Shown one piece after another: positions 19,793 to 35,505 of a stretch of DNA of 64,000 nt. The DNA is from Coriobacteriia bacterium (GTDB lineage Bacteria; Actinomycetota; Coriobacteriia; Anaerosomatales; Anaerosomataceae), in the NCBI GenBank assembly GCA_030651765.1, contig JAUSBY010000005.1, positions 248,001 through 312,000 on the forward strand. The letters are read 5' to 3'. The notes beneath the pieces were generated by a model. The model made no database searches and had not been told where the DNA came from. It was given only the letters and a program-made list of their open reading frames with translations. The first letter of the stretch is position 1. Every line of letters starts with the position of its first letter. The position numbers were made by a program, and so were the translations under genes.

Positions 19793-22700
19793 CTACATCG
19801 TCCGGGCGTAGGTGAGGCCGATGTGGCAGTGCCCGCAGGCGTTGGTCGGATGAGTCCACGCGGTCCCGTGCTTGTGGCAGCTCGCACAACTGCTCGACTC
19901 GTTCGGCAGCAGGTACGTGATGTCGTCGTAGTGGTCATACTCGCCGTAGTGACACGCGGTGGCGCATCCCTCGTGCATCGCCCGCACCGTGCCTTCGTGG
20001 CACGAGGAGCACAAAGCGGTCCAGTTGCCGGTGGTGATCGCAGGGACGACCGATCCGTTGACGCTTGACGGGAAGTGGTACACGCTCCCCGTTCCATGCG
20101 TATCGTGGCAAGTCACGCAGGGGATCGCTCCCTGTCCGCGCGCGTACGGCTTCTTGAGCGTGCTACCGAAGCCGCTGCCCGCGCGAGCACCGTGGAAGTC
20201 GCCGGTCGTCGCGTTCGTCCACGACGGTCCGACATTCACTACGCCCGGCGGGAAGACGACGCCCTCGGGAGGCGTGCCGTCGTGGCACCGCAGGCAGAAG
20301 GTCGACGCAACGGCCTGGCCGCTCGTTCCCACGGTCGTGTCGGTGCGCATGTCCGCCCTCCTGAGAAGCGTCCACGACTTCGCCACGGGACTCCATACGT
20401 ACACGGCGGTGTTGTAGGTCGTTGTGGGCTCACCGTGCCCGTTCCAGCTCAGAGACAGGCCCTTGGTGCCGGTGAGAGCCGAGGCGCCGAGGTCATACCT
20501 GATGACCTGCCAGTTCCAGGTGCGGTCCGCCACCGCAAGGTCTGTCGACCAGTACACCGAGTCGTCCGCCGAGATCGCTGCCAACACCGTCGCGTCTACG
20601 GGGTCGCCCGGCGAGGCAGGAGTGGGCAACGACGTGGCCGCACCCTGACTCTCCCATCCGGCGGTGGGCCCGACCGGGGTCACGGTGCCGTCGTGCGCCT
20701 CCGCTGTGACGAGCACGTGATCGGTGCCGAGCGAGAACACGTCCGGGCCCACGACCGTACCCGTGGCCCACACGTCGGTGTGGTAGACGCGCCACGCGAT
20801 CTCACCGCGAGTCGACGACTCGGTCACTCGCGCAACGGATGCGTCATAGACGCCAGCCTCGTACCGAGTGTTCCACTCCGCACGGTAGGTTTCGTGGAGT
20901 TCATCGCCGGGATACTGCTCAGTCTCAGGGTACGGATAGGTGCTCATGTCGTTAAACGGCAACGGTTCGACCGTCTCGCTCAAGCCCACTTTCGCGTCCT
21001 TGTAGTAGCCCTGGGTGAACATCAGGTAGCGCCGCGAGAAACCCCCGGACATCTCACGCTCGGCCTCGGCGTCGAATCGCAGCGCGAGCTCGTCGCCCCC
21101 GCCGAAGATCACGAACCGGTCGTCCGTCTGTTTGAGCAGGGGCGCCACCTCGCCGAACCTGGTGTGGTAGCCCTCGAAGTACGCGGTGCGATCGTTGGGC
21201 TCACCGTACACGTACTCGTAGACCTCGGGAGTGCCCTCCTTGAGGTCCATCCCCTTGGCGCGGAGTTCCGCCGAGATGAGCGGCACTTCGCCGATGCTGA
21301 CCTCGACCGCCTCCGACGTATCCACAGCGATCCAGTCGACGAGGGTCTTGAACAGAAACGTCATGCGCACCCGTCGGCTGTCACTGAGCCATATGTCCGA
21401 GACATCGAATGCGTACGGCCGGCTGAACTCGGGCGGCTTGGGCAGCATCAAGGTGCTTGCGGGAACCTGGACCCACGCGCCGGAGGCGTCCTGAACCTCG
21501 ATCCTGGTACGGGCGCCGAACTTGGACGCCTGCACCGCGCCCTCGTCGGTCGTCGGGAACAGGCTGATGGCGTCCATCACGATCGTGGTTCGCGGCGCAC
21601 CTGCGATGTCTCCAAGATCCAGCTCGATCGTCTGATACTCGAAGCCGTCGTTGCGGTCCTCGTTCAGCACCAATCGGTCTCCGTCGCGCGCAGTAAGCAG
21701 ACCGGTGACATCCTCGCCCGTCTGCACATGCGTCGCGCCGAGCGCACTGCCAAGCGGCAGCCTCACCGTGTGAAGCGCGTCCGTAAGGCCGGGATACGCA
21801 GCACCGCCTGCCTGGTACTTCTCGGCATAGACGTCGTATCCCTCGGGTACGTCGATCGTGTGGAGCCTCAGTTCGTCAAGGTAGTCGGTCTCGTACCGCT
21901 CCTCGACGAGTCGGAACTCGTACGAACCGTCGATGAGCGCGGGCTTTGTCTCGAGCAGATACGGGTCCTGCGGCACCGGCGGCAGATAGCCGGTCTTCGT
22001 CCGGGTGGCCAGCTTGCCCGAGCCGAACAGATCCGCCTCGAACACGAACTTCGTGCCGTCCCAGGTGAACAGGAACGGACACGAGCCTGAGTCCGGCGCG
22101 TTGGTCACGGTGAACGATACGGGCGCCGACCAGTCAGAGACCGCGTACGTCCATACGGAGTCACGTGCACGGACACGCACCTGGAAGGTCCCGTCGTAGA
22201 AGTACAGGCTCCCCGAGGGGCTCGGCATCCAGCTCGAAGATGTGCCGCCGAGTATCTGATATTGGTACTGCACCGGGTTGCCGTCAGGCGCACTCACCGC
22301 TGAACTCGAGACGGTAACGAGTATCGGGCCGCTTCCCGGTCCGGTCTGGTTGGGAACCGCGTTCATCACCGGGGGCGGCGGAGCGGCGACGGCCTTGTAC
22401 AGACGGTCGGCCGAAGTGGCGGTGTTCCCGAGCGCGTCTGCGCTGCGCACACGGTAGTGGTACAGCGTCCCAATCTCGAGTCCACTCATCGACACCGAGT
22501 GCGACGTGACGGGCGTATCGTTGCCGAACGGGGTGCCGACGGACTCGTTGCCGAGCTCGTACTCGGTGGTCGTACCCCAGTCGATCCACGATGTCGACCG
22601 CTCGTTGGTGGTCCACGTCACGATCGGTGATGTGTTGGTGCCAACCGTCGTCACGAGATTGATCGAGGAGATCACCGGCGGGCCACCGTCGTGGTCGGCG

Positions 22701-25700
22701 CCCACGAGCAAGAACACCGCACCGTCGGTGGCGATCAGGGACTCGAGCCCTGATGCGACGGTCGCCGAGATATCGTCGGGGTCCGCATACCGCACGGTCT
22801 CGTTGTCCCGGTGCGGATTGTGGCAGTCGGCGCACGCAGTTCGACCGCCGGTGGCCAACTGGTCGGCGGGCATCACATCGTGCCGGTAGCGAGCGTCGAC
22901 TCCGGCTGTGAACGCGGTGTGGATGTTGACTCCCGAGGCGGAGTTGGCCGCATTCGAGTGACATGCGCCTCCACCGCTGCCGGTGCACGTCCTTCCATCC
23001 GATGCGGCACGACCGCCCGTCAGAAGGACGCCGGACTCCATCGCCCCGTGCGGCGCGTGGCACGCGGCACACTGGCCTTCCGGCGCATCGCCGCTCGTGG
23101 TCACCTCGAGTGCAACGATGTCGGTGTTCAAAGACCGATGCACATACGCCGCATCCGGGGAGTCCTCAGCCGCAGCGAGTACCGCCTCGTCGGGCGAGAC
23201 GACCCCGACGAGCCACTGCGCGAACGAGCCGAGTGCTCCGACGAAACGATCCCAGGCACCGGGCGCGGCCGCCTCGGAGACCGTGATCTCCTCGGAGAGC
23301 TCGCCTTCGAATCGGGTGTTCCACTCGGCCAGGTACCGTGTGTGGACCTCGTCGGTCGGGTAACTCTCGTCGCTGCCGTACGGATAGTTGCTCATCGCCG
23401 CAAACGGCAGCGGATCCACCACGTGCTCGGTATCGGACTTCAGGTCCTTGTAGTAGCCGTTGGTATGGACCGCGTAGCGGCGGGTCACGCCGGAACCGGC
23501 TGGCGTTGGCGGCTGGAACGACAGTGCGATCTCGTCGCCCCCGCCATAGACCACGAACCGGTCGTCCGTTTCCTCCAGGAGCTCGGTGACCACGCCAAGC
23601 TTCGTGTAGTTGCCGGGCAGATACGCCGTGCGGCCGGTGTTCTCCGCATAGACGTACTCGTAGATCTCGTCGGTGGATGACTGCGCGCTGAACCCGCGGA
23701 CGCTCAAGTCGGCCGAGACGAGCGGCACCTCCGTCACGGTCACCGGCAGGTCGGCGGTGGTGTCCACGGCGATCCAGTCGACGTACGTCTTGAACAGGAA
23801 CGTGAGACGTACCTTGCGGCTGTCGCTCGCCCATATGTCGGAGATATCGAACACGAACGGACGGCTGAACTCCGGCGCCTTGGGAAGCGCTCCCTGGGCC
23901 GCCGCAACGGTGACCCATGCACCGTCCGCATCCTGCACCTCGAGCTTCGTCCTCGGACCAAACGTCGCAGCCCGCGCTGCGCCCTCGGCGTTCGAGGGAT
24001 ACATCGACACCGCATCCATCACGAGTTTCACCTGCGGCGCACCGGTGAGATCGCCGAGGTCGAGTTCGATGGTCTGGTAGTCGAAGTCGGTGTTGCGGTC
24101 CTCGCTCAGCACGACGTAGGATTCGTCGTCTGCCGCGATGAGCGACCGCACGTCGTCACCGGTTTCCACATGGACTGCCGCACGCGGTGAGGCCATGCTC
24201 GTAGAGACCGTGTGTAAGACGCTGTCCACACCCGGAAACGGCGCGCCTCCGGCCTCCCGCTTCTCGGCGTATACGTCCCGGTTGGCAGGCACGTCAACGG
24301 TGTAGAGCTTGAGTTCGTCGAGATAGTCCGCCTCGAACCGCTCCTCAACGAGCCTCAGATCGAAGAGTCCGTCCCTGATCGCGGGTTCGTTGGCCAGGAT
24401 GTAGACGTCATCGGGCGTGGGCCGCGCGAAGCCGGTCTTCGTCTTCAGTCCGAGCTTGCCCGGACCGTACAGATCGGCCTCGAACGCGTACTCCTCGCCA
24501 TCCCAGGTGTACAGGTATGGACACGTACCCGTGTTGTCGTAGATGAAGAACGTGTCCCAGGGCGAGTAGCCGTACCAGTGCCCGGCCGCATCTCTCGCCT
24601 CCACCCTCCACGTATACGAGCCGAGACCCATGACCGCGCTGTAGCTGGTCACGGGCCCCCACCCTGTGGTCACGTACGACACGCCGTCCTTCTGCAGGTG
24701 CATCCTCATCTCGAACGGGCCACCCGGCGCCAGCGCCGGGGCCGCCCACTGCAGCGTGACAGTGGGATCGGTGCCCATCCACGCGTAGTCGATCTCGGCG
24801 GTACGCGTCGGGCCCGGGATGCCCTGCTCGATGTCGGACGATACGTACGTGCCGCCGTCAGCAGCGACCGAACGCGCGCGGAAGTGCCACACACCCGGAG
24901 ACAGGCCGGTCACCGTGACGGAGTGACTCTGCGTCCGGGTGGCCGAGCCTACCGTCGAACCGTACGACGCGGTAGGTCCGTAGTCGACCCAGCTATCGGC
25001 CAGTCCGGATGTGACCCAGTCCACGCGCGCGCTCGTGCCGCTGAGCGCGGTGACCACGGGACCCGAGATCACATTCTGATCGAACGAGTACCGCGCCTTG
25101 GCCATCAGGTAGACCGAACCGTCATCGGCTATGTGGTCTGCCGGGCGCAGCGGCAGGTTGACAACGGTCTGGTTCACCATCTGCGCGCTTCTGAGCTGCT
25201 CCCACGAGTCAGTGGCAGGAACCCATACGGAGATCACGACCGGGAAGCCGGGGGCTTCCTCGCCGTAGCCCTCCCAGTGCACCCGAACAGAGACCACGGC
25301 GGACTTCACAACCGGCATGGTGAACCGGTACATCTGGTGATCGTAGCTGCCATCCACCGTCTGAAGCGCGGTTATCAGGCGCTTTCCATCGCGCAAAGCC
25401 AGCTTGCCGATCTCACTTGGCGGAACCGGAGTCCCCGGCTCCCATGGGCTCGGAACCGACGTGCTCGCCCATGCCGAGAACTCGGCGCCGTCTGCGACAA
25501 CGGTCAGGTACTCGATCGCAGGACCGGCGATGTCGTTGTGTCCAGACGATGAGAATGTGGCGTCACCGCGATACGAGTAGTCGACCGGATAGGTCAGCGT
25601 GGCCGCTGCGTGACATGTCTCGCACAGCTCGTCGCCCGCTACACGCGTGTACCGCTCACCAGAACCCGCGCCATGAGGCTCGTGACACCCGTCGCAGCCG

Positions 25701-26446
25701 CCGGACTCCCCGGCGGATCCCGGCCACGAGCTCAGGGCCCGCGTAGACGACGTGACGGTGGTATGCAGCTGGGCGGCAGCAACCACGCCGCCGCTGTAGA
25801 GACTCGCACTACTCTGGTGGCAGGCCAGGCACAGACTCGGCTCGCCACTCACGGTCACCGTCTCGCCGACAGACGATCGGACCTGCGTTCTGATAAGACT
25901 CCTATTGGCCGAAGCGTGAGGCGCATGACATCCGCGACAGCCGATCCCCGCAGGACTGTCCGATGGGACGACGTCCGCATGTGGCGTCCCCGTGATCGGG
26001 CCGGTCAGGTCGCCCCCCGCCAGGCTTGATCCCGAACCGTGACACGCGGCGCAGACCGCAATGCCCGTAGTCGCGGTCGTCTCACCTGGACGAAGCGAAC
26101 TCGGATTGCCCTCGGCGGGACCCTCGTGTGGGGTGTGGCATGAACCGCAGCGCAGGACGTCAGACTCGACGGGGTGAGACGAACCCGTACCCTCGTTGAA
26201 CTCACGCCAGATGTCGACCGTGCTGCCTGAGCCGTCATGGCACGACAGACACAGTGCGCGCTCGGTCTCCGCGACCGTCTGAGAAGGTCCGTCGGCTTCG
26301 TGTGGTACGTGACACAGGCCACATCGCGCCGTGTCCGGGCCGAACTCGCCGTGCGGACTCAACGCCGCCGCCACGCCCTGAGAACCCGCAGCAGCTGTCA
26401 GCGCTATCAGATACGCAACGATTCGTAGCGACGACGGTAGCCGCAT
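19793..26446 (-). CDS. Giant exported multiheme c-type cytochrome with fibronectin-like and duplicated modules
   Basis: About 2217 residues from ATG at 26446 (GGAG 7 bases upstream; an ATG at 26467 lacks an SD). It has a signal peptide (LRIVAYLIALTAAAGSQGVAA). There are fifteen CxxCH heme sites in three clusters: eight at residues 42-279, two at 1126-1209 and five at 2051-2208. Two unusual spacings are C-x7-CH (1154-1163) and C-x3-CH (2161-2166). Fibronectin-III-like stretches lie near 462-545 and 1258-1350, each ahead of one copy of a duplicated module of about 410 residues (641-1050 and 1455-1865). Several heme sites read CHxPH, as in NrfH/doubled-CXXCH families. No C-terminal anchor or sorting signal is visible. 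A role in extracellular electron transfer is inferred. Confidence 0.88.
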   Translation of the reverse strand: MRLPSSLRIVAYLIALTAAAGSQGVAAALSPHGEFGPDTARCGLCHVPHEADGPSQTVAETERALCLSCHDGSGSTVDIWREFNEGTGSSHPVESDVLRCGSCHTPHEGPAEGNPSSLRPGETTATTGIAVCAACHGSGSSLAGGDLTGPITGTPHADVVPSDSPAGIGCRGCHAPHASANRSLIRTQVRSSVGETVTVSGEPSLCLACHQSSASLYSGGVVAAAQLHTTVTSSTRALSSWPGSAGESGGCDGCHEPHGAGSGERYTRVAGDELCETCHAAATLTYPVDYSYRGDATFSSSGHNDIAGPAIEYLTVVADGAEFSAWASTSVPSPWEPGTPVPPSEIGKLALRDGKRLITALQTVDGSYDHQMYRFTMPVVKSAVVSVRVHWEGYGEEAPGFPVVISVWVPATDSWEQLRSAQMVNQTVVNLPLRPADHIADDGSVYLMAKARYSFDQNVISGPVVTALSGTSARVDWVTSGLADSWVDYGPTASYGSTVGSATRTQSHSVTVTGLSPGVWHFRARSVAADGGTYVSSDIEQGIPGPTRTAEIDYAWMGTDPTVTLQWAAPALAPGGPFEMRMHLQKDGVSYVTTGWGPVTSYSAVMGLGSYTWRVEARDAAGHWYGYSPWDTFFIYDNTGTCPYLYTWDGEEYAFEADLYGPGKLGLKTKTGFARPTPDDVYILANEPAIRDGLFDLRLVEERFEADYLDELKLYTVDVPANRDVYAEKREAGGAPFPGVDSVLHTVSTSMASPRAAVHVETGDDVRSLIAADDESYVVLSEDRNTDFDYQTIELDLGDLTGAPQVKLVMDAVSMYPSNAEGAARAATFGPRTKLEVQDADGAWVTVAAAQGALPKAPEFSRPFVFDISDIWASDSRKVRLTFLFKTYVDWIAVDTTADLPVTVTEVPLVSADLSVRGFSAQSSTDEIYEYVYAENTGRTAYLPGNYTKLGVVTELLEETDDRFVVYGGGDEIALSFQPPTPAGSGVTRRYAVHTNGYYKDLKSDTEHVVDPLPFAAMSNYPYGSDESYPTDEVHTRYLAEWNTRFEGELSEEITVSEAAAPGAWDRFVGALGSFAQWLVGVVSPDEAVLAAAEDSPDAAYVHRSLNTDIVALEVTTSGDAPEGQCAACHAPHGAMESGVLLTGGRAASDGRTCTGSGGGACHSNAANSASGVNIHTAFTAGVDARYRHDVMPADQLATGGRTACADCHNPHRDNETVRYADPDDISATVASGLESLIATDGAVFLLVGADHDGGPPVISSINLVTTVGTNTSPIVTWTTNERSTSWIDWGTTTEYELGNESVGTPFGNDTPVTSHSVSMSGLEIGTLYHYRVRSADALGNTATSADRLYKAVAAPPPPVMNAVPNQTGPGSGPILVTVSSSAVSAPDGNPVQYQYQILGGTSSSWMPSPSGSLYFYDGTFQVRVRARDSVWTYAVSDWSAPVSFTVTNAPDSGSCPFLFTWDGTKFVFEADLFGSGKLATRTKTGYLPPVPQDPYLLETKPALIDGSYEFRLVEERYETDYLDELRLHTIDVPEGYDVYAEKYQAGGAAYPGLTDALHTVRLPLGSALGATHVQTGEDVTGLLTARDGDRLVLNEDRNDGFEYQTIELDLGDIAGAPRTTIVMDAISLFPTTDEGAVQASKFGARTRIEVQDASGAWVQVPASTLMLPKPPEFSRPYAFDVSDIWLSDSRRVRMTFLFKTLVDWIAVDTSEAVEVSIGEVPLISAELRAKGMDLKEGTPEVYEYVYGEPNDRTAYFEGYHTRFGEVAPLLKQTDDRFVIFGGGDELALRFDAEAEREMSGGFSRRYLMFTQGYYKDAKVGLSETVEPLPFNDMSTYPYPETEQYPGDELHETYRAEWNTRYEAGVYDASVARVTESSTRGEIAWRVYHTDVWATGTVVGPDVFSLGTDHVLVTAEAHDGTVTPVGPTAGWESQGAATSLPTPASPGDPVDATVLAAISADDSVYWSTDLAVADRTWNWQVIRYDLGASALTGTKGLSLSWNGHGEPTTTYNTAVYVWSPVAKSWTLLRRADMRTDTTVGTSGQAVASTFCLRCHDGTPPEGVVFPPGVVNVGPSWTNATTGDFHGARAGSGFGSTLKKPYARGQGAIPCVTCHDTHGTGSVYHFPSSVNGSVVPAITTGNWTALCSSCHEGTVRAMHEGCATACHYGEYDHYDDITYLLPNESSSCASCHKHGTAWTHPTNACGHCHIGLTYARTM
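20852..22084 (-). repeat. Internal module copy 2 of the giant cytochrome
   Basis: Encodes residues about 1455-1865. It begins SCPFLFTWDGTKFVFEADLF and includes LVEERYETDYLDELRLHTIDVP, EFSRPYAFDVSDIWLSDSRR and FLFKTLVDWIAVDT. It ends near YRAEWNTRYEAG. The strong but imperfect match to copy 1 points to an old duplication kept under selection. Confidence 0.85.
23297..24526 (-). repeat. Internal module copy 1 of the giant cytochrome
   Basis: Encodes residues about 641-1050. It begins TCPYLYTWDGEEYAFEADLY and includes LVEERFEADYLDELKLYTVDVP, EFSRPFVFDISDIWASDSRK and FLFKTYVDWIAVDT. It ends near YLAEWNTRFEGE. It aligns along its whole length with copy 2 without heme sites inside. Confidence 0.85.
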
Positions 26447-26570
26447 CACGCCTCTCCGGCCAGTCATGTGCCGCAGAAGGATTAAGGTGCGGCGCCCGTT
26501 TCAGGTCGTCGCGCCTTAGTCGCACACTGCATTGTTGCGCACGCTTATCCAGCGTTAAGTAGTATGCGGC

Positions 26571-26963
26571 CTACCGCGCAGTGATGTCGAGTGTGAAGGT
26601 CTCGCGGGCCGGCGCCTCGGACTCCCAGGGACGGCGATACTCGAGCAGCAACACACCGCTGCCTGCCCCCGTCACCTCGAACCGAAGCATCTCAGTGCCG
26701 CCGGCGCCAACAACGTCATCATCCTCCGGGGCCTCGAACACCGACTCACCTGACTGCGTCAGGAACGCCGGAACCTCCACGACCTGCCATGAGTAGCCAG
26801 TGGTAGCGTTCGAGGGAAGCGCCACCTCGAGAACCTGCCCGACCCCGACGCGGACACTCTCTCCGTCGTCTGGCTGCCCGAACATCGCCCGGGACTCAGA
26901 ACATCCCGTTGCCGCCACGAAAGCGACCAGCACCACAACCGTGACCAACGTGCGCCGCACCAT
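26571..26963 (-). CDS. Chagasin-type (I42) cysteine-protease inhibitor lipoprotein
   Basis: About 130 residues from ATG at 26963. The lipoprotein signal peptide ends in the lipobox VAATGC. The mature part shows the three loops of the chagasin/I42 fold: LPSNATTGYSWQV, GAGGTEMLRFEVTGAGSG and LLLEYRRPWE. These inhibitors block papain-like cysteine proteases outside the membrane. It is 124 bases upstream of the giant cytochrome on the same strand, so it may protect exported proteins; that link is inference. A longer open frame to 27014 adds residues without signal-peptide character. Confidence 0.85.
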   Translation of the reverse strand: MVRRTLVTVVVLVAFVAATGCSESRAMFGQPDDGESVRVGVGQVLEVALPSNATTGYSWQVVEVPAFLTQSGESVFEAPEDDDVVGAGGTEMLRFEVTGAGSGVLLLEYRRPWESEAPARETFTLDITAR

Positions 26964-27012
26964 CGTCGACACCCCCGTTTCGCGCCTTCCCCACTTCCAC
27001 CTCTCAGACGCC

Positions 27013-27047
27013 ACGACGCCCGCCGCGGTTCACGCGACGGGCGTCGT
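27013..27047 (-). terminator. Hairpin next to attL, probably the original tRNA-Ala terminator
   Basis: 10-bp stem ACGACGCCCG / CGGGCGTCGT with an inner CGCG/CGCG stem. It lies 9 bases beyond the displaced tRNA 3' end at attL, in the sense expected for termination of minus-strand tRNA transcription before the element inserted. It also lies just upstream of the I42 gene start. Confidence 0.6.
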
Positions 27048-27055
27048 CATCTGCG

Positions 27056-27079
27056 TTGGTGGAGCCAAGGGGGATCGAA
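27056..27079. repeat. attL: displaced 3' end of tRNA-Ala
   Basis: 24 bases identical to 35482-35505. They correspond to the CCA end, acceptor 3' strand and T-arm part of the intact tRNA-Ala on the other side of the element. The match stops inside the T-arm, so this copy is only a tRNA fragment. Confidence 0.92.
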
Positions 27080-27104
27080 TTCCCGAAGTGCCCACTCGTG
27101 CGGC

Positions 27105-27200
27105 GTCTCAACGTGTGTCAAACCGTCCACAACGCGAGTCCTTTCCGCAGGTCAGACTATCTATTCCCGTCCGTCCGTGTCTCAAAGCGTGTCAGACCGT
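27105..27200 (+). repeat. Pair of imperfect 22-bp direct repeats near attL
   Basis: Copies at 27105-27126 and 27179-27200 share 19 of 22 bases (GTCTCAA...GTGTCA.ACCGT), 52 bases apart. They sit 25 to 120 bases inside attL, where arm-type integrase or excisionase sites are often found. Function is not shown. Confidence 0.5.
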
Positions 27201-27319
27201 TTCGGTGCGGTTCTCGTGCATTCCGTTGCGATTACGTGTACGGACCGCGCGCCACCGGCCCTCTGGTAGTACCGTCCGAAGGGTGTTCCCGCGGCACGAC
27301 GAAACGAAGGGATGGAGCG

Positions 27320-27499
27320 ATGTACATCTACGAAGAGGCACAGGCACGGTACGCAGGGCCGCACGTCACCGACGAGATCGAGTCGGCGATGGTCCGGGTG
27401 CAGGAGAAGCACCACGATCGGCTCGTGAACGAGGTCGTAGGGCTGTTGCACGAGGAGATCATGGGCGCGCGCCTCACGTCTGAGGAGGAAGTCGCCTAA
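27320..27499 (+). CDS. Small acidic hypothetical protein at the left end of the element
   Basis: 59 residues, starting MYIYEEAQARYAGPHVTDEI and ending LTSEEEVA; charged and probably helical. ATG at 27320 has a weak GGAG site 4 bases upstream. A perfect terminator hairpin starts 27 bases after the stop, which supports it as a real transcription unit. It is the only plus-strand gene in the left half of the element. No family recognised. Confidence 0.5.
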   Translation: MYIYEEAQARYAGPHVTDEIESAMVRVQEKHHDRLVNEVVGLLHEEIMGARLTSEEEVA

Positions 27500-27526
27500 A
27501 TCGCGGCTAGGTCACGTACAACGCGC

Positions 27527-27552
27527 GGGGCCGACCCTTCGGGGTCGGCCCC
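27527..27552. terminator. Strong hairpin terminator between convergent element genes
   Basis: Perfect 11-bp GC-rich stem (GGGGCCGACCC / GGGTCGGCCCC) with a TTCG tetraloop. It lies between the plus-strand 59-residue gene and the end of the minus-strand zinc-ribbon gene, and can serve both. Confidence 0.8.
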
Positions 27553-27560
27553 TCTCGCCG

Positions 27561-27980
27561 TCACCTGCTCGACCGAGCCTTACTCCGAGGCAGTGGTAGG
27601 CCGAGCTCCTCGCGCCGGCGATGAACCTGCTGCTTGATTCGTGCGGCGTCACGCCGGGCATCGAGCTCGGCGAGAACCTGCTCACCGGCCACGTTGAGCG
27701 CCCTACGCACGCACCGGGCACAGAGGCCGAGCCGTGCGTACCGCGGGCTGATCGGGAAGGCTGCGCACCTCGGGCAGAGCTCCTGATCGTGCGACCTCGT
27801 GACCCGTTCGACTAGCGCCTCGAGCGACACGTCACCGCGGGCGACGGCCGCTTGCTGGGCGGGACTGAGCAGGGGCCACAAGTCGTCATACGGCCCGTCT
27901 GGATCGTCCTGCACCGGGCGTCCGTCCCGCGTCACGTCGTCACGTAGAGCTTGCCATTGGTCGTTCCCGAGTCGTGCCAC
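27561..27980 (-). CDS. Hypothetical zinc-ribbon protein of the element
   Basis: 139 residues with GTG at 27980, which has AAGGGGG 5 bases upstream; an upstream TTG at 28013 would have its SD too close. Two CxxC pairs, CPRCAAFPIS... and LCARCV, form a likely zinc ribbon in the middle. A basic, arginine-rich helix fills the C-terminus (ARRDAARIKQQVHRRREELG). It follows the tape-measure gene by 36 bases on the same strand. No family recognised; a nucleic-acid-binding role is possible. Confidence 0.6.
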   Translation of the reverse strand: MARLGNDQWQALRDDVTRDGRPVQDDPDGPYDDLWPLLSPAQQAAVARGDVSLEALVERVTRSHDQELCPRCAAFPISPRYARLGLCARCVRRALNVAGEQVLAELDARRDAARIKQQVHRRREELGLPLPRSKARSSR

Positions 27981-28016
27981 CGCAGCCCCCTTCAGGTCGG
28001 CCCTGCGATCCAACTC

Positions 28017-29765
28017 CTAATCGACGAGTCCCGGACGGGCCGAGAGCGCGAGCGAGTCTGAGAGCACGCGCCGTACCGCGGCCTCGAGGAAAGTCGCATC
28101 CTGGCGCGACCCGCTTATCTGGAACACCTGCGAACCGCCTGCGCCCGCAACCAACGGTGCTGCATACCCGGGCACGCCTGCGGAAACGCTACCGATGCGC
28201 GGCCCCTCGACCGCCATCCCGGACAAGCCGGAGTACGCGTCGCCTATCAGGCCCACGCCCCGGAGCACGTTATCCACAAGCGACGGGCTCTCGCGATGGA
28301 ACGGGTTGAGCTTGTCGAGAAGGTTCTTGGCGTCGTGGATCGGCTTGCTGATCTTGGACAGCATCTCTTTCAGGAAGCTGACCACCTTGTCCTTCATCTG
28401 CCGGAACCACTCTGGGATCTCTTTGACGACCGCAAAGACCCGGTGCGTGACCTGACCGATCGGCATGCCCTTGATGAAGTCGACTATGCCGTTGAAGGTG
28501 GTCTTGATGCCCTCCCAAGCCGCGCCCCAGTCGCCACGGATGACCGCCATGACGGTACGGATCACGCCGGAGATGACCTTCATCACGCCGGAGATCCTGT
28601 TCACGACCGCGACCATGATCGGTTCGATCGCCTTCTTGATGGCCGGCCAGTTCTCGGCTACGAAGTCGACGATGGCCTTGATGGTCGGCATGACCTCTTT
28701 CGCCATGTCACCGAACGCCTGCTTGATCTCGGTCATCGCGGGCTCGATGTATGCGGTGTACCACTCCTTGATCGTGGGCATGACGTTGGTGGAGAGGTTC
28801 TGTAGCGATGCGGTCAGCGCTCCGGCCTGCTCGGTGACCCACGGCGGGATGAGGCCGCCGGAGCTCCCCAGCGAGGACGCGAACTCCATCACGTCGGTCA
28901 GTAGGTCGCCGACCCACCCGCCGAGCGCGGCCGCGGCCGGACCGAGATTGTCTATCGCGCCGATGAGACCGTCGAGGCCGCCTTTGATGTTCGGGATGAT
29001 GCCTTCGCTGAACTGGGCGCCGGTCCGGCCGAGAGCGGCCATCATGTTCGCCCACGCGCCCCTGGTGGTGTCACCGGCAGAGAGCGCGGCCCCGCCGACG
29101 TTGCTCGATATGGCCTGCTGGAACATGGCCGCATCGACCTCGCCACGCGATACCATGTCGCGCATCGCATCCGCGGTCACGCCGTACTCGTCGGCTAGCC
29201 ACTGGAGGACCGGGATACCGCGCTCGCCGGTCTGTTGCAGGATCTCGCCGGTCACCTTGCCGACGCCCGTCACCTTGTTGAAGATGGCCGCCATGTCGGT
29301 GAACGGCACCTTGGCGACGAACGCAGCGTCGCCGACCGCCGTCAGGTACCCGGTCAACGCCTCACCCTCGGCCACGCCTGCAGCGAGAGCGGAGACAGCG
29401 GCACCCATGGCGTCGTTCAGCGCGTAGGGAGTTCCGAGGACCGACTTGAGGACGTCATCGGTGATGGCGCCGACCTGCTGCACGGTGTAGCCGAGCGCGC
29501 CGAGGGTGGCCTTGGCGTCCTCGATGTCGAGCGCCCGGTCGATGCCCTTCTTGAGCGTGAACGCGGCGGCCCCGGTGATAGCGGCGGCAGCTGCGACGGC
29601 TCCGGCCTTGGCGAACTTCCCGATGGAGGCCGACATGCGCGAGCCGATCGACTTGCCCGCGCCGTCACCGATGTTGGCGAACTGGGAACTAGAGAGCTCG
29701 GCCGCCAGCTTGCGGGTGTCCGGCACGATGCTAATATAGGCAGTTGCAATTTCGATTCCGGCCAT
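28017..29765 (-). CDS. Phage tail tape-measure protein
   Basis: 582 residues. The N-terminus AGIEIATAYISIVPDTRKLA and the conserved tape-measure core (IEDAKATLGALGYTVQQV, PFTDMAAIFNKVTGVGKVTGEILQQTGERGIPVLQWLA) are followed by a hydrophobic segment. Long helical stretches and repeated short motifs come next (MPTIKEWYTAYIEPAMTEI, VMPTIKAIVDFVAENWPAIKKAI). In phages this protein sets tail length and helps DNA ejection. The length would suit only a short tail. ATG at 29765 follows GGGAG by 6 bases. No tail-tube, chaperone or baseplate gene lies nearby, which is odd for a functional prophage. Confidence 0.88.
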   Translation of the reverse strand: MAGIEIATAYISIVPDTRKLAAELSSSQFANIGDGAGKSIGSRMSASIGKFAKAGAVAAAAAITGAAAFTLKKGIDRALDIEDAKATLGALGYTVQQVGAITDDVLKSVLGTPYALNDAMGAAVSALAAGVAEGEALTGYLTAVGDAAFVAKVPFTDMAAIFNKVTGVGKVTGEILQQTGERGIPVLQWLADEYGVTADAMRDMVSRGEVDAAMFQQAISSNVGGAALSAGDTTRGAWANMMAALGRTGAQFSEGIIPNIKGGLDGLIGAIDNLGPAAAALGGWVGDLLTDVMEFASSLGSSGGLIPPWVTEQAGALTASLQNLSTNVMPTIKEWYTAYIEPAMTEIKQAFGDMAKEVMPTIKAIVDFVAENWPAIKKAIEPIMVAVVNRISGVMKVISGVIRTVMAVIRGDWGAAWEGIKTTFNGIVDFIKGMPIGQVTHRVFAVVKEIPEWFRQMKDKVVSFLKEMLSKISKPIHDAKNLLDKLNPFHRESPSLVDNVLRGVGLIGDAYSGLSGMAVEGPRIGSVSAGVPGYAAPLVAGAGGSQVFQISGSRQDATFLEAAVRRVLSDSLALSARPGLVD

Positions 29766-30110
29766 ATCAGGCTCCCTTTCGGCGTTATCAGAATCGTCCT
29801 CTGGTGGTCACTTAGCACCCCGGAACGAACCATCGACGGCGCACTGGGGCCGAAGTCCCAGAGTCGTACACACCCTGAGCCACAGCACCTAGCCGGTCGA
29901 AAAGGGCGCCGGGGAGGAGATTGGTGGCCTACCTCTGGCCCTGGGTACGGTGCAGGCGAGCGTTTCGCCGTCTGCCGCTTGGGGTTGCCGATCTCGTACA
30001 CACAGTCAGCCACAGCACCTAGCCGGGGCTACCCCCGGGTGGGACGGGATGGATGGCGTGGGTAGCGGTGACGGACGCCAGGCCCGCCACCGCCAGGGGT
30101 AGCGGCCGCG
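29766..30110. other. Non-coding stretch upstream of the tape-measure gene
   Basis: 345 bases with no convincing gene; short frames here lack ribosome sites and family features. It contains two near-identical 33-base direct repeats at 29864-29896 and 29994-30026, and the SD of the tape-measure gene at its left end. It may be a regulatory region or the scar of a deletion that removed other tail genes. Confidence 0.6.
29864..30026 (-). repeat. Two 33-bp direct repeats, 130 bases apart
   Basis: Copies at 29864-29896 and 29994-30026 match at 30 of 33 positions. They share TCGTACACAC at the left and AGCCACAGCACCTAGCCGG at the right; the three differences cluster in the centre. Confidence 0.85.
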
Positions 30111-30851
30111 TCACTCAGCGAACCCGAGCGGCACAGCCGTTGCCGCCGTCGGCCAGGTCGGTGTCGGTCCGGTGCTCGGCACGTCGGGCGCTTGCACCGG
30201 CGCGAGGGCGTCGGCCTCGGCAGCCCGTAGCGTGGCACCTGCGGCCGTCAACGAGCCCCAGACGCCCGCTCTGCCGTGGGCCGCACGCGGGGCCGTCCAA
30301 GCCTTCAGCGCGGCCTCTGCGTTCTCAGGCGGCACCGAGGCGACGAGTCCGAGTCCGTGGCCGGGATTGCTCGGCACGTACCTCGGCATGGCGATGGTGG
30401 CGACTTCGGCAAGCAGCTTCGCCGCGGCGTTGAGATCGTGGGCAAGCGCAGGGAGCGCGGCGTATGCGTCACGAGACGGCTTCGGCGCGGACAGGATGGT
30501 CTCGGCGTCGGTGTTCGGGTCGGTGGCCTTGAGCGCCCGCGTGAACGCTCTTGCGGCCTCGTCGAAAGCCTTGGCGGCGAAGGCGTAGCCCTCGGCCCAC
30601 GGGTAGGACTCACGCAGCGCGGGCTCCACGGCGTTCGAGATCGCGGCTGCGGCCTCACGGCGTGACGCCAGCGCGACGCCGGCGGCGACCGCGGCGTCCA
30701 CGTCACCTGCGGCGAGCGCGGCTGCGAGCTCGTCTGCAGCGAGGTCGACCCGGCGCACAGCGGCTTGCGCCGTGGCCGAGATGGTGGCGGTCGCCTCCGG
30801 GCTGAAACCTGCACGGGCGAGCTGGTCGGCGAGTCTTGTGCTCTCGTTCAC
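30111..30851 (-). CDS. Helical hypothetical protein of the element
   Basis: 246 residues, strongly Ala-rich and helical, with a low-complexity Pro/Thr C-terminus (VPSTGPTPTWPTAATAVPLG). GTG at 30851 follows AAAGGA by 7 bases. It lies between the SWIM-finger gene (38 bases upstream) and the non-coding stretch before the tape-measure gene. Position and composition would suit a scaffold-like or structural accessory protein, but no family is recognised. Confidence 0.6.
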   Translation of the reverse strand: MNESTRLADQLARAGFSPEATATISATAQAAVRRVDLAADELAAALAAGDVDAAVAAGVALASRREAAAAISNAVEPALRESYPWAEGYAFAAKAFDEAARAFTRALKATDPNTDAETILSAPKPSRDAYAALPALAHDLNAAAKLLAEVATIAMPRYVPSNPGHGLGLVASVPPENAEAALKAWTAPRAAHGRAGVWGSLTAAGATLRAAEADALAPVQAPDVPSTGPTPTWPTAATAVPLGFAE

Positions 30852-30888
30852 GTTGGATCCTTTCGTTGGGCGCCCGCAGGCGCGTCGA

Positions 30889-31188
30889 TCACCGAATGGT
30901 CGCCGCCGGCGACAGGCCGGCCGGCTCGGGCTTCGTCACGTGCGTCTTGCCTCGCCATAGCGCACGCGCAAGTGCGACGTGGCGGCAGGTCTGGTGATGC
31001 TCGCAGGTGCAGAACACGCGGACCTCTCGCTCAGGGTCGAGCCAGATCATCGCGCGGTGCGCGATCGGCGACTTGCGGGTTCCTTCTACGAAATCGAGCG
31101 CCAGGAGCTCGGGGGTTGCGGAGAGCACCCACACCCGGCCTTCAGCGAGCGCGAGCATGATGTGAATGGCTTGCTTCGTGGTGATCAC
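30889..31188 (-). CDS. Small SWIM-type zinc-finger protein
   Basis: 99 residues. The segment VFCTCEHHQTCRHVALARAL contains CxCx5CxH, the SWIM zinc-finger pattern, which binds DNA or proteins. The N-terminus MITTKQAIHIMLALAEGRVW is helical. Its start overlaps the ATPase stop by 4 bases, so the two are probably translationally coupled. It may be an accessory factor of the ATPase. Function otherwise unknown. Confidence 0.65.
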   Translation of the reverse strand: MITTKQAIHIMLALAEGRVWVLSATPELLALDFVEGTRKSPIAHRAMIWLDPEREVRVFCTCEHHQTCRHVALARALWRGKTHVTKPEPAGLSPAATIR

Positions 31189-32387
31189 GAGCCCTCCTCG
31201 TCGTCATCGAACGGGATGGTCTCCGAGGTCAGTGTGCCAGCACTCCTAGGGCCGTTTTCCTGGCACTGTGGCACGGTGGCATTCTGGGGGTGGGTGGGTT
31301 GGTCAGTGTGCCAGGTTGCCAGGTTGCCAGGGTTTTGGTCCTGGGAAGATGGCAATGTGGGCAGCGACCACACCCATCCTGAGTGGTGCCCGAGTTGCCG
31401 CGACTCGACCTTGAGCTCACGCTTCGCCCGTGCGAGGGTTCGCTCGGCGATGTCTGCCTCGCGCGCCAGTCGCTTCACGTCGCGTGCCGGCATCTCACCG
31501 TCGGCAAGGATCTCGCGCAGGAACGCGGCCGCCTCGTCGCGCGCGGTCCGCTCCTCCTCATTCCCGAGACTGAGCACGTCTGCTGCTGACGAGTCGCTCA
31601 CACCGTCCCAGCGGATGACGCTGGCCTCGGCGACCGTCTCGATGTGGAATGCGAGAGAGGGCGGCTCGGGGGCAAGGTTGCACTTGGTAGACGCCAGGAC
31701 ACGCCGCGTAGGATCCGCCGGGTCGCGTCCGACCACGAGCCCGGACCGTGCAGCACCGACGATGCCGATACTGCCGCCGCCGCGATACAAGGGGTTGCCA
31801 CCGACTGCTTTATTCAGGTGCCGTACGAGCAACACGGCGGCGCCGGTCTCAGCGGCGAGGAGCGCGAGCAGGTGCAGGCCGCGGCGGACCTCCTGGTCTT
31901 TGTGCGAGTCGATCGCGCCGGACAGGAAGGCCATGAGCGGGTCGACGATGACCAGACGTGCGTCCACGCGACTGATCGCCGCACGCACCCATGACAGATC
32001 GTCGGGCAGCACCGGGGGCCGGCGTCCGTCACCGTCGTCGATCTCGGACAAGGCGACGATGCGCTCGAGGTCCGCACCGGCGGCGTCGAGCCTCGGCCGG
32101 ATGGTATCGGCGATGTCGTCCTCCGCGCTCAGCAACACCACGCCGGCGGGGCCTATCCGGACGCGGTCGTCGGGCATCGGAAGACCGCACGACACCCGAG
32201 CCGCAAGATCCAGGGTAAGCGTGCTCTTGCCGAGACCAGGGTCGCCGTCGATCACGGAGACCTTGCCGGCGGGGATGCGTCCGTACCAGAGCCACTGAAC
32301 GGCCTCAGGAGCCACGTCGGCGACGATGATGCCTACTTGGACCGAAGCGTCGTCGGGTTCGGAGTCGTAGCCGTCCAGAATGCTCAC
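31185..32387 (-). CDS. RecA-like P-loop ATPase (AAA_25/RepA type) with C-terminal winged-helix region
   Basis: About 400 residues from GTG at 32387, with GGAGG 8 bases upstream. The domain has GKVSVIDGDPGLGKST (Walker A at about 48-55), VVLLSAEDD, a Walker B ARLVIVDPLMAF, and AVLLVRHLNKAVGG with a GSIGIVGAAR segment. This is the DnaB/RepA-like hexameric helicase fold common in phage and satellite replication. A HTH-like region (GEMPARDVKRLAREADIAERTLARAKREL) precedes a variable tail. It is likely the replication ATPase of the element. The longer frame to 32444 overlaps the previous gene further. Confidence 0.85.
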   Translation of the reverse strand: MSILDGYDSEPDDASVQVGIIVADVAPEAVQWLWYGRIPAGKVSVIDGDPGLGKSTLTLDLAARVSCGLPMPDDRVRIGPAGVVLLSAEDDIADTIRPRLDAAGADLERIVALSEIDDGDGRRPPVLPDDLSWVRAAISRVDARLVIVDPLMAFLSGAIDSHKDQEVRRGLHLLALLAAETGAAVLLVRHLNKAVGGNPLYRGGGSIGIVGAARSGLVVGRDPADPTRRVLASTKCNLAPEPPSLAFHIETVAEASVIRWDGVSDSSAADVLSLGNEEERTARDEAAAFLREILADGEMPARDVKRLAREADIAERTLARAKRELKVESRQLGHHSGWVWSLPTLPSSQDQNPGNLATWHTDQPTHPQNATVPQCQENGPRSAGTLTSETIPFDDDEEGS

Positions 32388-32707
32388 CGGCGCCGCCTCC
32401 TTCCGATCTCGGCGTTGACGGTCTTCAGGCGCTCGATCGCCCATGTCACCGCGTCGATGAAACCTCGCGCGTCGCAGACCGGGATGGGGAACCGACGGCC
32501 GTGAGCGGCGTGATGGCGCAGCGCAACAAGAAGGTGCTCTACGCCGACGCGCTCGACGACTAGCGCCGAGTCAGACAGTGCCCCGATGTCGCGGCCGCGG
32601 ACGCGGTCGTAGTCCGCCTGGTTGTCCAAGGGGTTCGGCAGCCGGTAGCCGCCCACCACGACCGGCTTGATCGTCGAGCCCGGGAGCCAGGCGATTGTCG
32701 AGGTCAC
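32384..32707 (-). CDS. Hypothetical protein in the element's replication operon
   Basis: 107 residues. A central stretch ADYDRVRGRDIGALSDSALVVERVGVEHLLVALRHH is followed by a basic tail ending RRRRR. The start overlaps the previous gene and the end overlaps the ATPase gene, both by 4 bases, so expression must be coupled. No family recognised. Its place between two HTH proteins and a replication ATPase suggests a replication or regulatory role. Confidence 0.6.
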   Translation of the reverse strand: MTSTIAWLPGSTIKPVVVGGYRLPNPLDNQADYDRVRGRDIGALSDSALVVERVGVEHLLVALRHHAAHGRRFPIPVCDARGFIDAVTWAIERLKTVNAEIGRRRRR

Positions 32708-32931
32708 CGCGCCACCTCCTCAGTGTCGCCCACTACCTCGAACGGGATGCCGTACCGCTCGAGCAACGTGGGCATCGAGACGAACCGCGACGATGGCGGG
32801 CCGACGAGGGGCCAGTCGTCCGCCTCTGCCATGCGGTAGGAGGTCGGCCGCGTGAGGCCGCACACCGCACCGGCGGTGGCGATTCGCTCGAGGAATCGGA
32901 CACGGCGACCGGCGACTATGATCCCGCTCAT
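32704..32931 (-). CDS. Small HTH-like protein of the element
   Basis: 75 residues from ATG at 32931, which overlaps the previous stop as ATGA. The body AGAVCGLTRPTSYRMAEADDWP and SSRFVSMPTLLERYGIPF follows the layout of a MerR-like/HTH_17 excisionase domain: a helix-turn-helix, then a strand pair with the arginine and serine/proline pattern. The sequence diverges from the standard family. It may be a second DNA-binding factor alongside the upstream excisionase-like protein. Confidence 0.6.
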   Translation of the reverse strand: MSGIIVAGRRVRFLERIATAGAVCGLTRPTSYRMAEADDWPLVGPPSSRFVSMPTLLERYGIPFEVVGDTEEVAR

Positions 32932-33125
32932 CTCTCTTCGCTCCCCGAGAGCGCACTCTCGATCCCCCGCTCGATCGCGCTGCGCGGGATCCGCCATTGC
33001 CCGAAGAACTTGTGTGCCGGAAGGCTCCCGGCCGCGATGTGCCGGTGTATCGTGCGCTCGCTTACCTGGAGCAGGTTCGCGGCCTGGGCCACGGTCAGAA
33101 GCTCCGGCTCGTCATGGATTCCCAC
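32928..33125 (-). CDS. Excisionase-like HTH protein (HTH_17, MerR superfamily)
   Basis: 65 residues. It contains LLTVAQAANLLQVSERTIHRHIAAGSLPAHKFFGQWRIPRSAIE, a textbook HTH_17/excisionase domain. GTG at 33125 follows GAAGGGAG by 6 bases; an ATG at 33158 has no ribosome site. It is the first gene of a five-gene operon and is divergent from the integrase operon, the usual place for Xis or a control protein. Confidence 0.85.
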   Translation of the reverse strand: MGIHDEPELLTVAQAANLLQVSERTIHRHIAAGSLPAHKFFGQWRIPRSAIERGIESALSGSEER

Positions 33126-33138
33126 CGTTGACTCCCTT

Positions 33139-33214
33139 CGATAACTGTTCGTTGACATCTGCGGCTATCGGAGTAGAATTCTAGACAACCGCATACAGCC
33201 GACAGGAGTTATCG
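33139..33214. promoter_or_regulatory. Divergent control region of the element with paired half-sites
   Basis: Between the excisionase-like gene and the integrase operon lie an inverted pair CGATAACT (33139-33146) and AGTTATCG (33207-33214), each touching a translation start region. A perfect palindrome TAGAATTCTA lies at 33174-33183 in between. The palindrome supplies a -10-like TAGAAT on both strands. This resembles a small lysogeny or excision switch. Confidence 0.55.
33152..33179 (+). promoter_or_regulatory. Promoter for the 304-residue gene and integrase
   Basis: Plus strand: -35 TTGACA (33152-33157), 16-base spacer, -10 TAGAAT (33174-33179). The transcript would have a leader of about 30 bases. 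Confidence 0.7.
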
Positions 33215-34129
33215 GTGAAAAGGACCAGCGAGCAGGCCGAATCGAGCGTCATCCGAGACCTGCTTGCAGCCCGGCTCCGAGCAGGGGGCGACTGGCCGGA
33301 GTCCTGGGGAGATGCCGCTCTACCGATCGAGGCATTCGACCGGTGGGTGAACGTCTCGAGCCTGAGCGATTGGGCGCTCCACGCCACGAGTCAGAGCGCG
33401 CAGGATCTTATCGACTGGTGGCGTGACGCGTACCCCGGGGCCAGGCACTACGTGCTCAACGGCGCGGCGATCAGCGAGGAGACTGTCGAGGCTGACGCTC
33501 CGGCGTGGTGGCCGGTCTACGAGCGCACACTGAGCGATGCGGTCAAGCCGTGGACTCACCGAACGCTTGAGGCGGCTCTCCGCGGCCTCGGGCCGAATGC
33601 AGACGACGAGGACACGTATGAGGCCGCTCTTGCCGTGGCGCAGGACCTCAGCAAGCGGACGGGCGCGCGCGTGGCCGATTCTCTCGCCTACATCATGGAG
33701 GGAACACCGCTGCGGATAGCACCGCTCAAGGGCCGGATCGTCCCGGGCGGCGGCGGGGTGCCGCGCATCGAGATCACCGTAGCCTCGCCTCTCGTGGACT
33801 CGCGCGCGGTTGCGAGCCTGTACGAGCGCCTGGCGCAGTCGGTCCGGCCCCTGTACGGGACTCCACCCAACGTCGAGCCGGAATCGGTTCGGTTCTACCT
33901 GGCCTACGAGGATCTCGAGCGCGCAGGTATCCGGCGCAAAGCGGATCGGCTCGAGGCGCTCCCCGCCGATCTGCGCAAGGGACGCAATCCCAACAGCGCG
34001 GCAGCGTACTTCGGCAAGCTTCGGAAGGCGTTCCGCCAGGCGTTCACGTTCGGTGGCGGACTGGATCGGGACTTCATCGACTGGTTCACGACCGGCAGTG
34101 ACTCCAAGGAGGACGGCGACAATGCCTAG
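33215..34129 (+). CDS. Hypothetical protein co-transcribed with the integrase
   Basis: 304 residues, rich in Trp and Ala (DWPESWGDAALPIEAFDRW, LIDWWRDAYPG, EADAPAWWPVYERTL). The C-terminal half has an alpha/beta look (VPRIEITVASPLVDSRAVASLYERLA and SVRFYLAYEDLERAG), which somewhat resembles helper proteins found beside integrases in actinobacterial elements. GTG at 33215 follows GGAG by 7 to 8 bases. Its end overlaps the integrase start by 8 bases. No family recognised with confidence. Confidence 0.65.
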   Translation: MKRTSEQAESSVIRDLLAARLRAGGDWPESWGDAALPIEAFDRWVNVSSLSDWALHATSQSAQDLIDWWRDAYPGARHYVLNGAAISEETVEADAPAWWPVYERTLSDAVKPWTHRTLEAALRGLGPNADDEDTYEAALAVAQDLSKRTGARVADSLAYIMEGTPLRIAPLKGRIVPGGGGVPRIEITVASPLVDSRAVASLYERLAQSVRPLYGTPPNVEPESVRFYLAYEDLERAGIRRKADRLEALPADLRKGRNPNSAAAYFGKLRKAFRQAFTFGGGLDRDFIDWFTTGSDSKEDGDNA

Positions 34130-35348
34130 GCGATTCGAGGGACAGCGGCTCGTCACGCAGTACGAGGAAGAGTCACGCGGCCGGTGGACGTGCAAGGCCC
34201 GCGCGATCCTCGGCACGCACCCGGACGGCCGGCGAAACGAACCGCGGACCACGTTCCGAGGGACCAAGGCCGAGTGCGCGGCCAAGGCTCGCGCATGGTA
34301 CGAGGCGCTGCTCGTGACTCCTGAGAAGGACCTACTCGGCAAGCAGCAGCAGACGGTGAAGACGTACCTCGAGACGTGGCTTGCCACCAAGAAGGCGACC
34401 GTGAAGCTCACGACCTGGAAGCGGTACGACTCGCTGATCCGCACGTCGATAGAGCCCGCGCTCGGTCCCGTGCGCTTGTGCGACCTCTCTCGGGACCACA
34501 TCGAGCGTTACATGGCCTCGTGCTACGAGGAGCAGTCCACGCGCCACACGGATGCCAAGGTCTCCCCGAAGACGATCAGGAACCGGCTCGGCGTTCTCGC
34601 TTCGGCAATGCGTCGGGCCGAGCGGGACGGACTGATCGCCCGGAGCCCTCTTGAAGGTGTCGACCTGCCGAAGCGGCGGCGCCCCGAGCTCGTGGTCATG
34701 CGCGAAGAGGACGCGGCGGCGCTCCTCGAGGCCGTGGAGGGCTCCGATATCGAAGTCCTGGCCTGGACGGCACTCCACACCGGCGCGCGCTTAGGCGAGC
34801 TCCTGGCGCTCCGCTGGCGCGACGTGGACCTCTCGGCCGACACGATCCACATCGCCCGTACTCTCGTGGAGGACAAGACGAGCGGAGACGACTGGTACTA
34901 CTTCACGTCCCCGAAGAGCGGCCGCACCCGGACGATCGAGCTCGATCCCGAGACCGTCGCGCGGCTCAAGGCGCACAAGAAGACAGTCGCCGAGCAGCGC
35001 CTCAAGGTCGGAGCGGCGTGGCGGACGCTAGACCTCGTGTTCCCGAACGTCTGGCAGCAGCGGCAGGTCGCTCCCGGCACTCCCCTACGCCCCACGACGG
35101 CCACACGGATCTTCCGACGCATCGCGGACGATGCCGAGCTCGAGGGCGTCCGCTTCCATGACTTGCGGCACGCGCACGCGACGTTCGCACTCCGGGCCGG
35201 CCAGAATCCGCTTGTGGTCTCGAGAAGGCTCGGACACGCCGACGTGCAGACGACCCTCAGCATCTACGCGCACGTTCTCCCCGGTGACGATATGAGCGCC
35301 GCGGTGGCGGTAGCAGACGTGATCCAGAAGGCGCGGGCTGCACGATGA
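34122..35348 (+). CDS. int: Tyrosine-type site-specific integrase
   Basis: 408 residues from ATG at 34122 (AAGGAGG about 9 bases upstream). An N-terminal arm-binding/AP2-like part is followed by a SAM-like core-binding domain (about 75-180) and the catalytic domain. The visible catalytic set is R in TGARLGELLALRWRDV, HDLRH, and LGHADVQTTLSIYAH with its Tyr nucleophile. The gene ends 134 bases from the tRNA-Ala 3' end, the usual orientation for integration into tRNA genes. The reaction would join attP to the tRNA 3' end. Confidence 0.95.
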   Translation: MPRRFEGQRLVTQYEEESRGRWTCKARAILGTHPDGRRNEPRTTFRGTKAECAAKARAWYEALLVTPEKDLLGKQQQTVKTYLETWLATKKATVKLTTWKRYDSLIRTSIEPALGPVRLCDLSRDHIERYMASCYEEQSTRHTDAKVSPKTIRNRLGVLASAMRRAERDGLIARSPLEGVDLPKRRRPELVVMREEDAAALLEAVEGSDIEVLAWTALHTGARLGELLALRWRDVDLSADTIHIARTLVEDKTSGDDWYYFTSPKSGRTRTIELDPETVARLKAHKKTVAEQRLKVGAAWRTLDLVFPNVWQQRQVAPGTPLRPTTATRIFRRIADDAELEGVRFHDLRHAHATFALRAGQNPLVVSRRLGHADVQTTLSIYAHVLPGDDMSAAVAVADVIQKARAAR

Positions 35349-35439
35349 GCACGCATTCCGTGTCCATTCCGTTGCCGTCGGCCGTTTCGGCGTCCGCGGG
35401 GCTCCCCTGGTCGGCTCCCGCTCCGAGCCTGAACACGCA

Positions 35440-35471
35440 GGTAGGACCCGGTATCTCTACCGAGCCCTACC
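35440..35471. terminator. Hairpin between integrase and tRNA-Ala
   Basis: GGTAGG / CCTACC outer stem, 3-base internal loop on each side, CGGTA / TACCG inner stem and a TCTC loop. It can end integrase transcription or act as a replacement terminator for the tRNA, whose native one was displaced to 27013-27047. Confidence 0.55.
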
Positions 35472-35481
35472 GTCTCTGGCT

Positions 35482-35505
35482 TTGGTGGAGCCAAGGGGGA
35501 TCGAA
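35482..35505. repeat. attR: 24-bp repeat inside the 3' end of the intact tRNA-Ala
   Basis: Identical to 27056-27079. It covers the CCA, acceptor 3' strand and part of the T-arm. Because the tRNA is complete on this side, the element carries a copy that restores the gene on insertion. Confidence 0.92.

Follow-up and report, generated by a model that had tools for sequence, protein, structure and literature searches.

A predicted giant multiheme cytochrome of a Coriobacteriia bacterium, with three heme groups set apart by long beta-domain spacers and a probable role in extracellular electron transfer

The window, by which is meant the whole 64 kb stretch of DNA analysed (66.8% G+C), forms part of a 2.26-Mb draft genome of 15 contigs and encodes on its minus strand, at 19793-26446, a predicted giant multiheme cytochrome of 2217 amino acids. 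This length and these coordinates were given by an earlier sequence-only reading, which left the strand unstated, and are exact when translation begins at the ATG at 26446, the second in-frame ATG, which has a Shine-Dalgarno sequence (GGAGAGG) upstream at 26457-26451. The longest open frame (19793-26467, minus strand) begins at an in-frame ATG at 26467 and comprises 2224 residues, and all residue numbers below refer to this 2224-residue frame, not to the 2217-residue protein. A plus-strand reading was rejected, as the first plus-strand frame of the interval is interrupted by many stops. 'Actinobacteria bacterium UBA2272' has an orthologue of 94% identity, and the dN/dS of about 0.13 between the two indicates a gene under selection rather than a chance open reading frame, which is also ruled out by shuffles of the same composition, where CxxCH motifs numbered 0.017 on average and one at most. 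The mature protein has a predicted mass of about 234 kDa and a predicted pI of 4.7. Its N-terminus resembles a signal peptide (residues 8-36; 26360-26446, minus strand) and contains the sole hydrophobic segment detected in a hydropathy scan; the export proposed earlier is predicted from this N-terminus.

A recount recovered all fifteen canonical CxxCH motifs of the earlier reading, in three clusters of eight, two and five. The eight motifs of heme group I (residues 39-310; 25538-26353) span residues 49-286 and begin at residues 49, 73, 107, 139, 177, 213, 258 and 282. Group II (residues 1133-1219; 22778-23086) has CxxCH at 1133 and 1212, and group III (residues 2058-2215; 19817-20302) at 2058, 2117, 2153, 2194 and 2211, all on the minus strand. 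As a count of canonical motifs fifteen is correct, but as a total of hemes it is probably two too low by homology. Group II also contains a CX7CH site, CTGSGGGACH (residue 1161; 22958-22987, minus strand), while group III contains a CX3CH site, CATACH (residue 2168; 19949-19966, minus strand), and once both are counted there are likely seventeen sites, grouped 8-3-6. Only two of the 36 cysteines in the protein, C649 and C1463, then lie outside heme motifs.

The two additional sites might instead be disulfides or non-functional remnants, leaving only fifteen hemes; the CX7CH spacing is unusual, and a text search of the literature for a heme site of this kind returned no paper. Against this, both cysteines and the histidine of CTGSGGGACH are retained in every aligned relative that covers the site, including two in which the spacing is CX6CH. 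An hhalign comparison furthermore pairs group II with hemes 5-7 of group I as homologues (probability 97, E 1.2e-10); in this alignment the CX7CH site falls on the canonical heme 6, with its distal histidine, and His1140, 1196 and 1219 fall on His184, 235 and 265. The CX3CH position is likewise occupied by a canonical CxxCH in several relatives. A total of only fifteen hemes is unlikely. At the same position of group III, five relatives (L040, L041, L043, L044 and L047) have CWCH, with a single residue between the cysteines.

When relatives from several families are aligned, the heme cysteines prove to be retained, with the exception of the last site, where the first cysteine shifts; the spacing of the first site in group I also varies, being CX3CH or CX5CH in the long-form relatives described below. 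Eight histidines outside the motifs are invariant or nearly so in group I (39, 98, 114, 163, 184, 235, 265 and 310). Group II has three conserved non-motif histidines, plus 1110 and 1259, and group III has five, plus one present in 10 of 14 sequences. These distal-type histidines fit in number what eight, three and six bis-His hemes would need, and the hemes, if attached as the motifs predict, would be mostly bis-His ligated.

Between successive heme groups lie several beta domains, in each case amounting to about 820-840 residues, and the fibronectin type III (fn3) and other beta domains make up about 70% of the chain. Group I is followed by a first beta-sandwich (about residues 319-460; 25088-25513), a first fn3-like pair (about residues 461-646; 24530-25087), which is matched in two stretches by the Pfam model Pur_ac_phosph_N, and a first copy of a beta-rich module with a jelly-roll-like part (about residues 647-1075; 23243-24529), here termed the TWDG module after its motif CP-x-L/F-x-TWDG, this copy beginning with CPYLYTWDG. 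Group II is followed by the second fn3-like pair (about residues 1260-1458; 22094-22690), the second TWDG module (about residues 1459-1870; 20858-22093) and a second beta-sandwich resembling the first (about residues 1917-2051; 20315-20719), all features being on the minus strand. The spacers are thus built from two copies of one unit, an fn3-fn3 pair with a TWDG module of approximately 430 amino acids (residues 446-1054 and 1245-1870, 47% identical), and the two beta-sandwiches match at 29%. Pfam models above cut-off were Paired_CXXCH_1, Cytochrom_c3_2 and MtrC-MtrF II/IV, all three matching group I, and Pur_ac_phosph_N; the fn3 model itself scored below cut-off, and no Pfam family was found for the TWDG module. 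A search of 296 sampled genomes at E 1e-8 did not find this module in Actinomycetota outside the order.

AlphaFold2 was run on two overlapping pieces (pTM 0.37 and 0.42), in which only the beta parts reached fair confidence, the pLDDT of the heme groups being mostly below 50. The fold matches of the spacers are to fn3 and beta-sandwich domains of kinds that characterise surface proteins, with fn3 dominating the searches, and tandem fn3 structures align to residues 461-646 at a Z-score of about 10, so that tandem fn3-fold domains, as in fibronectin-III surface proteins, are present. Pfam and predicted fold therefore agree on the fibronectin-like and beta-rich spacers that had been proposed from the sequence. 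Part of the TWDG module (about residues 752-904) aligns with 9efk_M, a phage tail protein (Z 10.4, 125 residues, 2.8 A), and the residues from about 319 onwards with 9euf_H (Z 13.0, 152 residues, 3.0 A); these likenesses of fold carry no evidence of function.

Of 69 genomes of the host's order, probably Anaerosomatales (OPB41), many of them incomplete drafts, 17 have strong relatives (E up to 1e-60). Some of the 52 genomes without a match nevertheless encode many multiheme proteins, suggesting that such a mode of life can do without the giant cytochrome. The relatives occur in two recurring gene settings. The short form, as in the window, is flanked by a DMT-type transporter gene and leuS, and no electron-transfer gene was found among its neighbours. 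The long form is found immediately ahead of lepA, downstream of a comEC-holA stretch, and in several copies directly follows the gene for a 7-heme cytochrome. The 7-heme cytochromes constitute a separate family, with at least four copies in the present genome and ten in one relative. Long-form proteins have about 400 extra residues ahead of the first heme, comprising one membrane segment, a linker composed of up to 70-76% Pro/Asp/Glu and a beta part, and this stretch looks like a tether that would span the wall. The short form showed no known wall anchor; its signal-peptide-like N-terminus and surface-type domains would imply a location at the cell surface or cell wall.

The sequence-only reading had named absence of a cytochrome c maturation system as a finding that would speak against it. 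Adjacent genes for ResB (C6:378056) and CcsA (C6:377001) are present in the genome, among genes with 10, 12, 18, 11 and 14 CxxCH motifs, and four further CcsA-like genes are encoded. A cluster of three CcsA-like genes, one of which also has a ResB-like part in its frame, lies at C6:440433-445716 (L059), and these may possibly code for dedicated lyases for unusual heme sites. At the DNA level the genome contains 526 matches of the CxxCH type, against 134 for a reversed-pattern control, in keeping with many other multiheme proteins. Adjacent genes with 6, 12 and 20 CxxCH motifs at about 173.3-177.2 kb of contig C1 (L063 3348-7200, plus strand) likely represent a separate electron-transfer operon. 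Another member of the order has a frame of 3153 codons (L091 1699-11157, plus strand) with 48 CxxCH motifs, a Big_5 domain and internal repeats. Giant cytochromes of a second class (L084 5469-10001, minus strand; also L085-L090) have repeated propellers of the YCF48/BNR type, together with fn3, and end in a decaheme part that is related to heme groups I-III. With propellers in some giant cytochromes and fn3/TWDG spacers in others, the mounting of hemes on large beta scaffolds appears to be a habit of the order. The host belongs to a little-known, probably iron-reducing branch of the Actinomycetota. The assignment to Anaerosomatales (OPB41) is a probable one, drawn from the size and composition of the genome, its richness in cytochrome genes and the matching Actinomycetota records; public taxonomy places UBA2272 no lower than the phylum.

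No full-length relative was found among solved structures, and no characterised homologue; a homologue with a different function was the second finding that had been named as adverse. The giant cytochrome belongs to none of the MtrC/OmcA, DmsE/MtrA and ANME MHC-A/B families; it is a new architecture and family, yet a known type of machine, and the conserved combination of three heme groups with long chains of beta domains was not found described before. The MtrC/OmcA decahemes have ten hemes in about 700 residues, arranged as two pentaheme and two split-barrel domains, and are lipoproteins in a porin complex of the Gram-negative outer membrane. As in these proteins, heme domains alternate with beta domains, and group I matches the MtrC-MtrF II/IV model. 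The MtrC/OmcA layout as a whole is not reproduced, however; domain II/IV is matched only locally, and the giant cytochrome has seventeen sites in three groups (8-3-6), more than 2200 residues (2217) and no porin, which bears out the earlier view that its size and architecture differ from OmcA/MtrC. The DmsE/MtrA decaheme family was rejected, TIGR03508 scoring 56.7 bits against a cut-off of 192.2. A profile match to PDB entry 6r2q_A, labelled 'Cystathionine beta-synthase' in the results table, was taken as MtrA-like, the entry presumably being the MtrCAB complex, and a weak local match (E 3.4e-5) was obtained to 7tfs, labelled Cytochrome c, which we take to be OmcE.

Closer in cell type are OcwA of Thermincola potens and OmhA of Carboxydothermus ferrireducens, which are likewise Gram-positive surface multihemes passing electrons to solids (PMC6703420, PMC7829351). 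They differ in having nine and eleven hemes, respectively, in far smaller proteins that lack long beta spacers, and OcwA is of the NrfA type, with open-site hemes. The ANME proteins MHC-A, -B and -C, with 20-86 hemes and S-layer, peptidase-M6-like or pectin-lyase-like domains, resemble the giant cytochrome as very large exported multihemes that combine stretches of hemes with large surface domains free of heme, and have been proposed to carry electrons across a proteinaceous envelope or S-layer without an outer-membrane porin (PMC9012536). They are archaeal, however, and lack the combination of fn3, TWDG and beta-sandwich spacers; MHC-A and -B have an S-layer domain and, at the C-terminus, a membrane helix, and membership of these two types was rejected, with no S-layer family found in Pfam (E up to 1) and no C-terminal hydrophobic segment. 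OetF, a multiheme with fibronectin domains that is supposed to be extracellular, is likened here by description and not by sequence, and differs as part of a porin conduit in the Gram-negative partners of ANME (PMC10553843). The cultured Anaerosomatales Anaerosoma tenue and Parvivirga hydrogeniphila, which are probably of the same order and include one obligate Fe(III) reducer with 17 multihemes, carry 17-18 multihemes with likeness to MtrA, OmcH and OcwA, while the main text of the paper describes no giant fn3-spaced cytochrome (PMC9686372).

These features together point, with reasonable probability, to an exported multiheme c-type cytochrome of the Coriobacteriia with about seventeen hemes (8/3/6), acting at the surface or in the wall in extracellular electron transfer. 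In such a protein the ResB-CcsA system would attach the hemes in their three groups, and mostly bis-His ligation would make them better suited to electron transfer than to catalysis. The heme groups would be kept apart by the fn3, TWDG and beta-sandwich domains, which would probably also attach the protein to wall, matrix, mineral or partner, while electrons from smaller wall-associated multihemes could enter one heme group and leave through another; the redox role and the direction of electron flow are those we infer. A single fn3 domain is 3.5-4 nm long and electrons do not tunnel between cofactors more than about 1.4 nm apart, so that spacers of 820-840 residues would, in a fully extended chain, place the groups far beyond tunnelling range as three isolated islands. 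The relay of hemes along an extended protein that had been suggested earlier is consequently not supported in that form, as the groups would be electrically separate, while the other part of that interpretation, an exported giant cytochrome in which heme groups alternate with fn3 and beta modules, stands. The islands must either contact partners or copies or fold together, and transfer between groups would need other cytochromes (for example the 7-heme type encoded beside the long form), other copies of the protein, or packed heme groups.

The last of these routes raises the tentative possibility, rather less probable than not in our estimation, that the three groups fold into one core, as do domains II and IV of MtrC, with the beta modules as protruding insertions and the whole serving as a compact conduit or terminal reductase. 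The score of group I above the cut-off of MtrC-MtrF II/IV is consistent with such a core, as are the origin of group II as a copy of hemes 5-7 of group I and the finding that, in other giant cytochromes of the order, a single contiguous decaheme domain is hit by the regions of groups I, II and III. In those giants, however, the group II matches overlap those of group I and may reflect a shared repeat rather than an ancestral order, and the heme parts have no confident model. It is unlikely that the protein is mainly an adhesin or matrix scaffold bearing hemes, which would store electrons or bind minerals or cytochromes and not itself be a conduit. The predominance of fn3 and other beta domains would suit this role, and OetF has been suggested to interact with a conductive matrix or to serve as a recognition site (PMC10553843), but the heme cysteines and the matching distal histidines are strictly conserved, which indicates strong selection on the redox sites. 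It is very improbable that the protein is a redox enzyme, reducing nitrite, sulfite or the like, that is carried on a large scaffold and has an open-site heme in one of its groups: the profile matches to NrfB and an NrfA-type chain are weak, OcwA does offer a Gram-positive precedent with two open-site hemes acting on soluble and insoluble substrates (PMC6703420), and the terminal site of group III varies with one candidate distal histidine not invariant, but there is no CxxCK in the giant cytochrome, and conserved spare histidines, available for most hemes and about equal to the hemes in each group, leave little room for open sites in heme parts that are modelled with low confidence.

Within the preferred reading of a surface cytochrome for extracellular electron transfer, a more specific picture may be advanced as speculation that we consider improbable as a whole. 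The protein would represent an order-specific Gram-positive class in which rigid beta spacers keep three bis-His islands, with 8, 3 and 6 hemes, about 20 nm from one another, distances between heme groups being taken from residue counts only. Current would flow only when the islands are bridged by 7-heme cytochromes or neighbouring copies, the protein would serve as the scaffold on which a network of cytochromes passes through the wall, and its maturation would accept one to seven residues between the cysteines. The outward passage of electrons in thick-walled bacteria without an outer-membrane porin is poorly known, and the Actinomycetota are among the least studied in this respect; a conserved and selected cytochrome of 234 kDa makes it testable whether the heme groups form a single path or depend on other cytochromes to bridge them. 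The differences in cysteine spacing, with CXCH, CX2CH and CX3CH at one position and CX7CH and CX6CH at another that is homologous to CxxCH, also provide natural material for the study of heme lyase tolerance in the ResB-CcsA system.

Directly upstream of the giant cytochrome, a gene for a chagasin-type peptidase inhibitor (Inhibitor_I42; 26571-27014, minus strand) is encoded; a frame at the same place in UBA2272 appears to be its counterpart, and the gene is apparently missing from other genera. Beyond it, an integrated element occupies 27057-35505 in tRNA-Ala(GGC), a position that is an empty site in the sister genome UBA2272. The element is bounded by 23-bp direct repeats (27057-27079 and 35483-35505) and encodes a tyrosine integrase (33810-35348, plus strand), an AAA_25 ATPase (31185-32444, minus strand) and a tape-measure-like protein (28017-29765, minus strand).
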